Below are positions 8,107 through 29,690 of a stretch of 64,000 nucleotides of DNA, in pieces. The notes under the pieces were generated by a model. The model saw only the letters and a program-made list of their open reading frames with translations, was not told where the DNA came from and made no database searches. The DNA is taken from assembly GCA_024743315.1 (NCBI GenBank), contig JANSWU010000002.1:310001-374000 (forward strand), written 5' to 3'. The position numbers and the translations under genes were made by a program. The stretch comes from Hyphomonadaceae bacterium. Lineage in GTDB: Bacteria > Pseudomonadota > Alphaproteobacteria > Caulobacterales > Hyphomonadaceae. Position 1 is the first letter of the stretch. Every line of letters begins with the position of its first letter.

Positions 8107-9498
8107 ATGGCGGTTGATATTCTGATGCCAGCTCTGAGCCCAACCATGGAAGAGGGCACGCTCGCCAAATGGCTGAAGGGCGAGGGCGACAAGGTCGAGG
8201 CCGGCGATATTATTGCCGAAATCGAAACCGATAAAGCGACGATGGAAGTCGAAGCCGTCGATGAGGGCACGCTCGCCAAGATCCTCATCCCGGAAGGCAC
8301 CGAAGGTGTGAAAGTGAATGCCGTGATCGCGGTGCTCTCCGAAGACGGTGAAGACGCAAGTGCCGTGACGGCCTCTGCGCCAACACAGTCAGCTGAGGCT
8401 GAAGTGGAAAAGGTGACACCAGTCGCCGAACCCGAAGTCCTGGAAGCGCAAGCCGCCGCCGATGCGCCTGCCGCTACCATGCTGACCAATCCTGATATTC
8501 CGGAAGGCACGACTTACACAAAAACCGTGCTGCGCGACGCCTTGCGCGATGCCATGGCCGAGGAAATGCGCCGCGATGAGACCGTCTTTGTGATGGGCGA
8601 AGAGGTGGCTGAGTATCAAGGCGCCTATAAAGTCACCCGCGAATTGCTGCAGGAATTTGGCGCCCGCCGTGTCGTCGATACGCCAATCACAGAGCATGGG
8701 TTTGCCGGCCTCGGGGTTGGCGCGGCCTTTGGTGGACTTCGCCCCATCGTTGAATTCATGACTTTCAATTTCGCCATGCAGGCGATCGACCATATCATCA
8801 ATTCCGCGGCCAAGACGTTGTATATGTCAGGCGGCCAGATGGGGTGTCCGATCGTTTTCCGTGGACCGAATGCCGCTGCCGCTCGGGTCGGCGCCCAGCA
8901 CTCACAAGACTATGCCGCTTGGTACGGACATGTGCCGGGCTTGAAAGTCGTCGCGCCTTGGGACGCCGGCTCAGCCAAGGCCTTGCTCAAATCGGCGATC
9001 CGCGATCCCAATCCGGTCGTCTTCCTCGAGCATGAATTGCTCTACGGGCTCGAATTCGATGTCCCGGATCTTGAAGATTACACGCTGCCAATCGGGAAAG
9101 CCGCCGTCATTCGAGAAGGCACGGACGTTACGCTGGTTGGCTATTCCCGGATGGTCGGATTCTCCATGGACGCCGCTGATAAGCTCGCTGAGCAAGGCAT
9201 CTCGGCGGAGGTCATCGACCTGCGCTCGATCCGTCCACTCGACATGGACACCATCGTGGAAAGCGTCAAGAAAACCAATCGCCTGGTGACGGCTGAAGAA
9301 GGCTGGAAACATATGGGCGTTGGCGGTGAGATCGCTGCGGGTGTCACCGAGCATGCGTTTGATTATCTCGATGCGCCGCCGCTGCGCGTGACGCAGAAAG
9401 ACGTTCCACTGCCTTATGCGGGCAATCTCGAAGCGATGAGCCTGCCAAATGCGGAAGACATTGTGGCCGCGGCGAAAGCGGTCTGTGAGGGGATGTAG
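8107..9498 (+). CDS. pdhB: pyruvate dehydrogenase E1 component, beta subunit with N-terminal lipoyl domain
   Basis: Beta half of E1. The 463-residue chain has an N-terminal lipoyl domain (about residues 1-78; lipoyl-lysine in ETDKATMEV), an Ala/Glu/Pro-rich linker (about 80-130), then the transketolase-like pyrimidine-binding and C-terminal domains ([10 protein letters not shown]...[15 protein letters not shown]-like region, [14 protein letters not shown]). A lipoyl domain on E1-beta is a hallmark of alphaproteobacterial PDH. Its DNA is nearly the same as the lipoyl domain of pdhC, with a 33-base identical run at 8236-8268 and 10121-10153. Confidence 0.97.
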
Positions 9499-9508
9499 GG
9501 AGGACAGA

Positions 9509-9979
9509 ATGAAGAAAGCAATCTCTGCGCTCAGTGTCGGATTGTTAGCAGCTGCTGGCTGCGTGCATGTGAACGTCACCGAGGATGTCTACGCCGATGA
9601 GTTCGAAATCTACGATCCGGATGTTGCAGCAATCGAGGCGGTGGTCCTCGACTATTTCGACGGCCAGGGCGAAGCCAGCCTCGAACGCTTGCAGCGCGCC
9701 TTTCATCCGGATTCCTCCATGTTTGGAGTGATGACCACCGAAGACGGCGACGAATACCTTCGGGTGTGGCCGAAAATGAGCGAAGTGATCGAGAACTGGG
9801 CGGCGAATGAAAACCCACCCGGCGCTGGTCGCGATGGCCAGGTTTTGAGCATTGAAGTGGTCGATGAGCGCCTCGCTGTTGTCACCTTTCGCTATGCCGA
9901 TCGCTTCTATGACGCCTTCACCATGGTGAAGCTGGATGGCGAATGGAAAATCGCCGCCAAGACTTTTGTTCGACAGTAA
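9509..9979 (+). CDS. NTF2-like lipoprotein inside the PDH operon
   Basis: Unassigned function. The start at 9509 follows a GGGAGGA ribosome site. The 156-residue product begins with a lipoprotein signal peptide (MKKAISALSV, lipobox AAAGC at about 14-18). The mature part (VLDYFDGQGEASLERLQRAF near the start, FRYADRFYDAFTMVKLDGEW near the end) resembles the SnoaL/lumazine-binding-like NTF2 superfamily, which are small cone-shaped ligand-binding or enzymatic domains. It lies between pdhB and pdhC in the same direction with 10- and 12-base gaps, so it is very likely in the same transcript. An envelope lipoprotein there is unexpected. Family assignment is by pattern only. Confidence 0.8.
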   Translation: MKKAISALSVGLLAAAGCVHVNVTEDVYADEFEIYDPDVAAIEAVVLDYFDGQGEASLERLQRAFHPDSSMFGVMTTEDGDEYLRVWPKMSEVIENWAANENPPGAGRDGQVLSIEVVDERLAVVTFRYADRFYDAFTMVKLDGEWKIAAKTFVRQ

Positions 9980-9991
9980 GGGGCGAACGCA

Positions 9992-11332
9992 ATGTCCATT
10001 AATATTACAATGCCCGCGCTCAGCCCGACCATGGAAGAAGGCACGCTCGCCAAGTGGAATGTGAAACCGGGCGACACGGTCGAGGCCGGCGACATCATTG
10101 CCGAGATCGAAACCGACAAGGCGACGATGGAAGTCGAAGCCGTCGATGAGGGCGTTGTGGCGCAGATCCTGGTCGATGAAGGCACTGAAGGCGTCAAAGT
10201 GAATGCGATCATTGCGGTGCTGGCGGAGGAGGGAGAGGATGCTGGAAACATCTCGCTCACTCCCGCGGCGGCGGGAGCCTCGGACAGTAAAGCGCCAGAA
10301 TCTGAGGCACCAACCGAACCGGATCCCCGCCTGCGCGGGGATGAGCGAACAGACGAACCCAAACAAGTCGCCTCCACCCCCGTCACCATGCCGTCCCTCG
10401 GCGCAGGCGATGACCGGATTAAGGCGAGCCCATTGGCGCGCCGGATCGCGGCGCTGAAAGGTGTCGATCTCAACGCACTGAAGGGCAAAGGGTCAGGACC
10501 TCACGGCCGGATCGTCAAAAAGGATGTCGAGAACGCGCAGCCCGGCGCTGCGGCGGCCACACCAGCGGCGGGTGCCTCGGCGCCAACGTCTCCGGATGGT
10601 CTGATCCTGCCGCAAATCCTTGATGACCGGGTCTATGCCCCAGATAGCTACCGGCTCGAGCCGCTTGATGGCATGCGCAAGACTGTGGCACGTCGCCTGA
10701 CCCAAAGCTTCATGCAGGTGCCGCATTTCCCGCTCAACGTGGACATCAAGCTCGACAAGCTGCTGGCCGCCCGCAAAGGCATCAATGAGGCCGCACCAGA
10801 AGGCGTCAAAGTCTCGGTCAATGACATGCTGATCAAGGCCTCAGCCATGGCGCTGATGGCCGAGCCCGATTGCAATGCCAGCTTCTCGGACAAGGGCATC
10901 GCCTATCACAATGGCGCGCACATTTCGGTGGCGGTGGCGATTGATGGCGGCCTGATCACGCCGGTGATCCGCGACGCCGAGAAAAAAGGCCTGGCCGAGA
11001 TTTCGATCGAGATGAAAGATCTCGCGACCCGGGCGCGTGAGCGCAAGCTGAAACCGCAGGAATATATGGGCGGCACATTCTCGATCTCGAACCTTGGCAT
11101 GTTCGGGATCAAGTCTTTCGCCTCAATCATCAACCCGCCAGAAGGCATGATCCTGTCGGTCGGCGCCGGCGAGAAACAGCCAGTGGTGGGCGCCGATGGA
11201 CAGCTGACGACGGCAACCTTGATGGGCGTTACCCTGACCTGCGATCACCGCGTGATTGGCGGTGCCGAGGGCGCGCGCTGGTTGCAAGCGTTCAAACGCT
11301 ATGTTGAAACGCCTGAAAGCATGCTGCTTTAA
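9992..11332 (+). CDS. pdhC: dihydrolipoamide acetyltransferase (E2) of pyruvate dehydrogenase
   Basis: Transfers acetyl groups from E1 to CoA and forms the core of the complex. The 446-residue protein has one lipoyl domain (1-78; lipoyl-Lys in [10 protein letters not shown]), a linker (80-145), a peripheral subunit-binding domain ([20 protein letters not shown], about 147-180) and the catalytic acyltransferase domain (about 215-446). The active-site motif reads DHRVIGG where the family consensus is DHRxxDG: His is kept, but Asp is Gly. The linker contains a palindromic DNA repeat element (10254-10347) read in frame. GAAGG-like spacing of 12 bases separates it from the lipoprotein gene. Confidence 0.96.
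10254..10347 (+). repeat. palindromic repeat element inserted in frame in pdhC
   Basis: The right arm (10322-10347) matches exactly the 26-base right arm of the intergenic copy at 29665-29690 and contains CCCCGCCTGCGCGGGG. The left arm (10254-10279) is a degenerate inverted partner that keeps CGCTCA and the CCCGC...GCGGG core. The spacer is 42 bases. In pdhC it is read as linker residues about 88-118, including PDPRLRGDE. In the +3 frame it gives PRRREPR...RIPACAGM, a translation typical of dispersed proteobacterial palindromic repeats. Confidence 0.85.
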
Positions 11333-11344
11333 GGGCGCGCTGCG

Positions 11345-11950
11345 ATGAAGCTGGGATGGCCGAATGTGGAGATGACCACGGCGCTGAGCGCAGTTGTGGT
11401 CGGCGTGGCCGCCCTCATCGTGGCGGTCGATCAATCCAATATTGCGCGCCAGCAAGCCGACCTGATGGAGAAGACCGTCCAGGCCTCGGTCTGGCCAGTG
11501 GTGCAGTTCGACTTTGTCGCCGACCAGGATCTTTACGGGGCTGAGGCGTCCTTGTCTTTGCGCAATTCGGGCGTCGGGCCAGCGATCATCAAAGGGATTC
11601 AGGTGACCCGGGATGGCGTGCCGGTTGCACGGATCGAAGACTATCTGCTGCGCAATCTTGAGATCACGCAGGGCATGCGGTTTGAACTGGATGTCAATCG
11701 CGGCACGGGGCGGGTCTTGTCCGCCGGCGAGGTTGTGGCGGTGGGCGAGGCCAGATGGACGCTCGCCGTCGGGCAAATTCCGTCCAATATGCGGGATAAT
11801 ATCAACGCCTATTTCGCTGAGCTGAACGCGATTGAGGGCGCGATTTGTTATTGTTCGGTGCTGGATCAATGCTGGATCAACCGGACTCGTGATTATGCCA
11901 ATCCGGAGCCGGTCGATGCGTGCACGGATATGGAATTTGGTGAGTTTTAA
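11345..11950 (+). CDS. membrane-anchored protein of unknown function in the PDH operon
   Basis: No family recognised. The 201-residue protein has one N-terminal membrane helix (about residues 11-28, ALSAVVVGVAALIVAV). A short helix rich in Gln and Ala follows, then a beta-rich domain (VWPVVQFDF, LSLRNSGVGPAIIKGIQV) like that of other membrane-anchored proteins with an N-terminal helix and a beta-sandwich. The C-terminal part has four Cys (YCSVLDQC, VDACTD) that could form disulfides, which would fit a periplasmic location. It is packed between pdhC (12 bases) and lpdA (11 bases) in the same direction, hence probably co-transcribed. Confidence 0.75.
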   Translation: MKLGWPNVEMTTALSAVVVGVAALIVAVDQSNIARQQADLMEKTVQASVWPVVQFDFVADQDLYGAEASLSLRNSGVGPAIIKGIQVTRDGVPVARIEDYLLRNLEITQGMRFELDVNRGTGRVLSAGEVVAVGEARWTLAVGQIPSNMRDNINAYFAELNAIEGAICYCSVLDQCWINRTRDYANPEPVDACTDMEFGEF

Positions 11951-29608: not shown

Positions 29609-29690
29609 CGCTCATCCCCGCGCAGGCGGGGATCTTTCTTCACAGTATAGGATTTACTGCACGAGATCCCCGCCTGCGCGGGGATGAGCG
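29609..29690. repeat. intergenic palindromic repeat element
   Basis: Two 26-base arms, 29609-29634 and 29665-29690, are perfect inverted repeats of each other around a 30-base spacer. Each arm is itself a small hairpin (CCCCGCGCAGGCGGGG). It sits between the convergent ends of ssb and the Kelch gene. The right arm is identical to that of the copy inside pdhC (10322-10347). It could fold into a long hairpin and act as a bidirectional transcript end. Confidence 0.9.

Follow-up and report, generated by a model that had tools for sequence, protein, structure and literature searches.

Palindromic elements located inside genes, and translated in frame in otherwise normal genes, are said to have been described in Rickettsia by Ogata et al. 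in 2000 and 2002. The size of these Rickettsia palindromic elements (RPE) is given as about 150 bp in a passage of PMC10969869. REPs read in frame inside genes have also been published already, and the main text of PMC3733652 describes the CGTC-1 type as having an 8-bp stem that starts from AT, a 4-nt loop, a tag of CGTC, TGTC or CCTC next to the stem and an unpaired tail that is mostly CCA; the copies form HH dimers, occur mostly in alphaproteobacteria and can be intragenic, and CGTC REPs are listed without a dedicated transposase. According to the same text, intragenic REPs may be neutral in flexible linkers or loops, a view doubted in one passage for genes of replication and repair, and recB of Xanthomonas campestris and of X. 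oryzae carries different REPs at about the same site (PMC3733652). The words pyruvate, dehydrogenase, lipoyl and uracil are absent from that main text, and among the listings and abstracts searched we found no paper on REPs in the linkers of pyruvate dehydrogenase (PDH) or of uracil-DNA glycosylase (UDG).

Here we analyze a repeat of this kind in a member of the Hyphomonadaceae. The window, that is, the whole stretch of 64,000 nucleotides under study, contains the following features:

8107..9498, + strand: pdhB, E1 beta with its own lipoyl domain (Pfam)
9992..11332, + strand: pdhC, E2 of pyruvate dehydrogenase, 446 aa, frame intact (list of open reading frames; Pfam lipoyl, E3_binding and 2-oxoacid_dh)
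10223..10417, + strand: pdhC linker, from the lipoyl domain (residues 4-77) to the E3-binding domain (143-180), Pfam boundaries
10254..10280, + strand: putative degenerate left REP arm, 7-bp stem and 4-nt loop, residues 88-97 (18/25, 20/27 and pairing with the right arm)
10321..10347, + strand: right REP arm, 27 nt, residues 111-119 (DPRLRGDER), perfect 8-bp stem and 4-nt loop
29609..29690, + strand: intergenic full REP dimer of the same family as the pdhC right arm, downstream of an ssb-like gene, predicted fold of -70.9 kcal/mol

The 94-base block formed by the two arms and the bases between them is read as residues 88-119 of E2 and is free of stops in the frame of the gene. It lies in the linker because Pfam sets the end of the lipoyl domain at residue 77 and the start of the E3-binding domain at 143 (the catalytic domain spans residues 220-446). 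A sequence-only reading had placed a palindromic repeat, translated in frame, between the lipoyl and subunit-binding domains, in the linker of E2; it named the kind of element correctly, and the Pfam boundaries and the lack of a stop agree with the position. No REP is apparent in the pdhB linker of the same genome. The pdh gene cluster also contains two small genes, one before pdhC (9512-9979) and one after it (11345-11950).

In the host genome (G000; 3,312,933 bases in 8 contigs), the repeat occupies 17 loci, 13 of them dimers of about 82 bp with the tags outward (HH) and four of them single arms, the pdhC copy being one of the four. The pattern ATCCCCGC-N4-GCGGGGAT, an 8-bp stem starting with AT around a 4-nt loop, occurs at 22 places in G000 and nowhere in the control; a search for the stem pattern at 3 mismatches yields 331 places against 233 in the control, and in that form it cannot be used to count decayed copies. 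In the left arms of the dimers, the four bases beside the stem are GCTC in 11 of 13 cases and GTTC in the other two, the tails of the host copies vary and are often CT plus one base, and GTAG beside the stem is absent from the copies read. A Y1 transposase (PF01797, RAYT-type), found in 5 of 14 control genomes, gave no match in G000, and the search for RNA families in the window returned a tRNA alone at gathering scores. Judged from these sequence features, the element is a REP of a CGTC-1-like type; we name it CGTC-1-like, and not CGTC-1, because the tag adjacent to the stem is GCTC or GTTC rather than CGTC, TGTC or CCTC. Two of the 17 loci fall within genes supported by homology, pdhC and a Pfam UDG gene, and none of six other tested frames that run over host copies had a Pfam match.

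The claim that the right arm is identical over 26 bases to the repeat at 29609-29690 is upheld: positions 10322-10347 agree at 26 of 26 bases with the intergenic dimer's right arm (29665-29690), and the pdhC arm matches the other copies in the host genome at 88-100%. Chance is excluded for this arm because CCCCGC-N4-GCGGGG is found at 25 places in G000 and at none with the reversed-pattern control. Folded alone, it reaches a predicted -16.8 kcal/mol (z -2.44; 2 of 200 shuffles are equally good).

The left arm is, with moderate confidence, a real but old and decayed REP arm. Its match over 25 bases (10255-10279) is 18/25, the best in the 64 kb window on both strands after the three exact arms, the next-best places reaching 17/25. 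On a 27-base scale it scores 20/27, the second highest among 87 family linkers in the forward sense, exceeded only by the REP-bearing linker of L132 (23/27). It retains the outer CGCTCA and a 7-bp stem of its own, and the two arms of pdhC are predicted to fold together at -54.0 kcal/mol (z -4.28; none of 200 shuffles as good); for the intergenic dimer, z is -11.87. Moreover, hairpins of the form CTCCGGC...GCCGGAG occupy the place of the left arm in three relatives, with a 4-nt loop in L101 and with 6-nt loops, against the 4 nt of the repeat, in L093 and L111. A test for stems at the homologous position, chosen after the hairpins had been seen and therefore not blind, gave p 0.002 over 10 relatives and p 0.015 without L098 and L101; the signal is carried by L093, L111, L101 and L098, and the other six relatives are at chance. 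Thus, the degenerate inverted left arm proposed from the sequence is probably real, given its 20/27 score, its pairing with the right arm and the hairpins at the same place in three relatives, with the six relatives at chance weighing on the other side. Pure chance as the origin of the left arm is disfavoured.

The eight closest pdhC relatives (G001, G005, G007, G010, G014, G015, G024 and G028; genomes 87-100% complete) encode proteins 82-89% identical to that of the host. In the alignment, the right arm, about 27 nt (10321-10347), faces a gap in all eight, none of which has a counterpart of DPRLRGDER. The left arm has no 27-nt gap opposite to it, with about 9 nt missing there in two of the eight (L092 and L096). 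The absence from relatives of residues about 88-118, which the sequence-only reading had put forward as a check, therefore holds for the right arm (residues 111-119) and does not extend to the left. Perfect copies of the repeat number 22 in G000 and none in the eight genomes, one of which (G015) has a single weak match to the REP peptide. The reading survives this comparison: the closest relatives have neither the residues nor a perfect repeat, and the host has its 17 loci. Any perfect copy at all was found in 10 of 29 genomes of the genus, G000 included. Perfect copies number 11 in the congener G003 and 12 in G016, yet neither has a REP in the pdhC linker, nor was one found in pdhC of any of the five further congeners read, these two among them; because of such repeat-rich congeners, our confidence in the full explanation is slightly lowered. 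The search turned up no strain in which conserved flanks enclose an empty site, the nearest pdhC being 89% identical in protein, and the linker is too divergent for the borders of an insert or a target duplication to be placed.

The linkers of the family were compared with those of the rest of the class. The family set comprises 110 loci (30 + 80), reduced to 87 distinct pdhC linkers, whose members are not independent since two Maricaulaceae rows (L165 and L167) and closely related rows are included. Outside the family, 155 genomes had a pdhC match; the class set stems from 88 of these, taken by E-value, and after the loss of seven loci that failed to parse it holds 81 linkers. A perfect hairpin was defined as a stem of 7 or more with a loop of 4, and the expectation was obtained by codon shuffling; the definition was chosen after hairpins had been seen, so that the p values are not blind, and the class set serves as the independent control. 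At least one perfect hairpin is present in 12 of the 87 family linkers (2.4 expected), the other 75 having none, and at least two are present in eight (0.025 expected; the maximum in 200 shuffles was 1). Outside the family, six of 81 linkers have one (4.0 expected) and none has two (0.13 expected). With loops of 4-6 nt, the family counts are 17 of 87 with at least one hairpin (5.9 expected) and eight with at least two (0.28 expected), and linkers from elsewhere in the class stay at the chance level (10 of 81 against 9.1, and 1 against 0.83). The pdhC linker is repeatedly occupied by hairpin pairs in the family, and it is this recurrence that is new here.

The eight bearers of hairpin pairs (L025, L034, L036, L112, L123, L132, L157 and L158) are scattered on the pdhC tree: L025 stands beside the hairpin-free L092, L123 beside L127, and the sisters L034 and L036 (as L098 and L101) differ in hairpin type. 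The types are CCCCGC in L132 and L157, CCTCCCCCG in L034 and L123, both with intact 9-bp stems, and CCCGGC/CTCCGGC in L036; the distance of the pair along the linker varies from 67/130 to 136/187. For the genomes of the bearers, a single hairpin pattern covering all types jointly, without telling them apart, gave the following numbers of places (control in brackets): 26 (1) in the host genome G000, 13 (0) in that of L036, 15 (1) in L034, 50 (1) in L132, 34 (2) in L123, 88 (2) in L157, 12 (7) in L158 and 0 (0) in L112; the hosts of L144 and L145 gave 6 (4) and 4 (0). Matched strings were listed for the G000, the L036 and the L034 genomes, and in part for that of L132; with the pdhC copies counted, the own type makes up 6 of 13 (TCCCGGC) in the L036 genome and 11 of 15 (TCCCCCG) in the L034 genome. 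Going by these patterns, six of the eight hairpin-pair linkers look like REPs, of about three types; L112 and L158 are not counted because of their 0 places and their 12 against a control of 7. Degraded right arms are seen in the L132 clade, in L144 and L145 (22/27 each) and, by eye, in L148. The linker thus seems to take up repeats again and again. As a side observation, L144, L147 and L150, titled Acidobacteria or Sulfopaludibacter, have a Hyphomonas-like pdhC that falls inside Hyphomonas on the tree, and are probably mislabelled or contaminated.

A search for the REP peptide in 105 family genomes, not blind in that the query was partly built from the inserts of the L132 pdhC and the host UDG, gave a match in 29. 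The matches were in pdhC in G000, G330, G331 and G344, of which only G331 (L298) is new, G330 and G344 being the L132 and L144 linkers already counted, in UDG in G000, and in one protein of three related genomes (G351, G352 and G356). That protein (L305, L307, L323 and L324) has one or two in-frame REP dimers, read as LIPAQAG...DSRLRGNER, and the one copy tested has no Pfam match. Matches in long frames of G002, G013, G016 and G008 (L320-L322 and L325) look antisense or spurious. Among the pdhB linkers of the family, one of 52 distinct ones has two hairpins (L132; 0.005 expected) and L036 has one, 45 loci yielding no linker; in the class none of 58 has two, with 30 loci yielding no linker. The L132 organism, Hyphomonas sp. 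S2_81, carries a REP pair in its pdhB linker, at positions 373-450 of L132, in addition to the one in pdhC.

The UDG gene shows a pattern similar to that of pdhC. In the host genome (L172; G000:C4:77843-78691), this gene of the uracil-DNA glycosylase superfamily encloses a complete REP dimer, whose in-frame reading is LIPAQAGTSGRSRDHSAPDPRRRGDER. Of 30 UDG loci, 29 were read: the arms of L172 score 26/27 and 25/27, those of L177, at nearly the same positions, 22/27 and 20/27 (a decayed host type), and the remaining 27 loci score 13-17 for either arm. At the same site, two hairpins of another type, their loops 5 nt long, are present in L175 (G010), and one hairpin is present in L183 (G012). The sequence TCCCGGATCAAGTCCGGGA, which the right arm of L175 fits, occurs with at most two mismatches, both strands summed, 25 times in G010, 42 in G012, 12 in G000 and 0 in G022, all four with controls of 0. 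The 12 matches in G000 include C7:60709-60727 and C4:637969-637987, and for some of them a copy of the first repeat is no more than a few hundred bases away. Hairpins without likeness to REPs are found in L173, L181, L193 and L195. The stem test at the homologous site, likewise picked after the hairpins had been seen and hence not blind, gave an overall p of 0.009 over 12 relatives, carried by L175 and weakly by L183, the rest resembling the null. The host gene is 849 nt long and the nearest nine without a dimer 834-846 nt; a plain 82-nt insertion is therefore unlikely in UDG, whose dimer-free matches are about equally long.

Length is informative in pdhC as well. At 234 nt, the G000 linker exceeds those of the eight closest relatives (201-222 nt) by 12-33 nt (4-11 residues), a surplus that fits the 27-nt right arm and not the entire 94-base block. 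Across the family, the median is 240 nt for the eight linkers with hairpin pairs and 237 nt for the other 79 (Mann-Whitney p = 0.69, at low power), and some REP-free relatives have equally long linkers, so that a plain insertion of 82-94 nt is not what these lengths predict. The proposed lengthening of the swinging arm through the repeat, by about 31 residues, does not stand against an excess of 4-11 residues and hairpin-pair linkers that are no longer than the others. Either older REPs were replaced in place, or compensating deletions were favoured, or the REP-free linkers are themselves decayed REPs. We also considered the entire 94-base block as one recent insertion and rejected it: without these 94 nt, the linker would be shorter than those of the aligned relatives. 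One such event is unlikely, too, because the linkers of several relatives hold hairpin pairs, some of them of other REP types.

The block is probably an in-frame REP dimer in the PDH E2 linker, composed of a right arm close to the consensus of the host REP and an older, decayed left arm, and we infer that the repeat arrived in the linker by mobile insertion. A REP from the genome's own pool would enter the flexible linker, or overwrite or convert an older REP there, by transposition or by recombination through some enzyme; only those reading frames of the repeat that are free of stops would survive. Its hydrophilic peptide, containing Pro and Ala, would be tolerated by the flexible linker, allowing the REP to persist, and, with the net length near the family norm, the effect on the enzyme would probably be close to neutral. 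The closest competitor, which we hold to be less probable though far from negligible, is an ancestral REP dimer that has decayed in most lineages and has been refreshed in a few by conversion, at constant length. It would account for the equal lengths of linkers with and without hairpin pairs, for the UDG arms of different types at the same site (L172 host, L177 decayed host, L175 other) and for the degraded arms of the L132 clade (L144 and L145, with L148 by eye), but in most hairpin-free relatives the homologous site shows no remnant of a stem beyond the chance level, and the hairpin pairs lie at differing distances along the linker. In its strict form, a single ancestral dimer decaying in all lineages, this idea was set aside, since the stem tests (p 0.009 for UDG and 0.002 for pdhC) draw their signal from a few members; it is kept as a rival.

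It seems to us unlikely that only the right arm is a REP, inserted recently as 27 nt into an ordinary linker rich in Ala and Pro, and that the left arm arose by coincidence from GCG-rich alanine codons. The linker excess of 12-33 nt over the eight closest relatives is near 27, three other single arms exist in G000, and runs of GCG and GGA codons ease the formation of such hairpins; against this, the left arm is the top-ranking non-exact match in 64 kb, has retained the outer CGCTCA and is predicted to fold with the right arm, and hairpins stand at its place in L093, L111 and L101. We regard as improbable that selection maintains the hairpin for a role at the RNA or DNA level, such as pausing ribosomes between the domains or stabilising the pdh mRNA, with the peptide as a by-product: the strong predicted fold and the intact 9-bp stems of other types in L034 and L123 would suit such a role, but 75 of the 87 family linkers do without a perfect hairpin of that size, and a recent copy looks intact without selection. 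Returning to the in-frame dimer, a wider proposition is possible, if rather doubtful at present: the flexible linkers of the lipoyl-bearing PDH subunits (E2 and sometimes E1 beta) and of UDG in the Hyphomonadaceae may be standing REP sites, in which an old dimer is overwritten time after time, in frame and without change of length, by the REP family that abounds in the genome concerned.

If so, parts of the swinging arm of a core enzyme would be built from, and refreshed by, selfish DNA. In-frame REPs are known from many unrelated genes; here one core enzyme is affected recurrently, by several types, with a negative control outside the family. The natural series of fresh, half-decayed and other-type copies offers material on the evolution of linkers from selfish DNA, and bears on the question of conversion at REPs already in place as a route of spread for REPs that lack a transposase. 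There is a warning for annotation, too: where a protein contains a peptide like LIPAQAG or DPRLRGDER, that peptide may be a translated repeat.

Compared with the systems described so far, the host case is an in-frame intragenic REP: a copy of a genome-wide repeat lies in a conserved gene with the frame kept, and the gene of relatives is without it. It differs from GTAG REPs with a RAYT transposase, as there is neither a GTAG tag nor a PF01797 match in G000. With the RPE it shares a palindromic repeat translated in frame inside a normal gene, but the RPE, in the passage cited, measure about 150 bp, and the host arms about 27 nt and the dimer about 82. CGTC-1 REPs, as the main text of PMC3733652 presents them, are closer, with the 8-bp stem starting with AT, the 4-nt loop, the HH dimers and the lack of a Y1 match in common, although the host tag is GCTC (CGCTC) and the tail is not CCA. 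The REPs of recB, in the account of the same text, resemble our case in that different REPs sit at about one site of one gene across species; there, however, one species pair is concerned, whereas here several members of a family carry them in pdhC, together with cases in UDG and in the pdhB linker.
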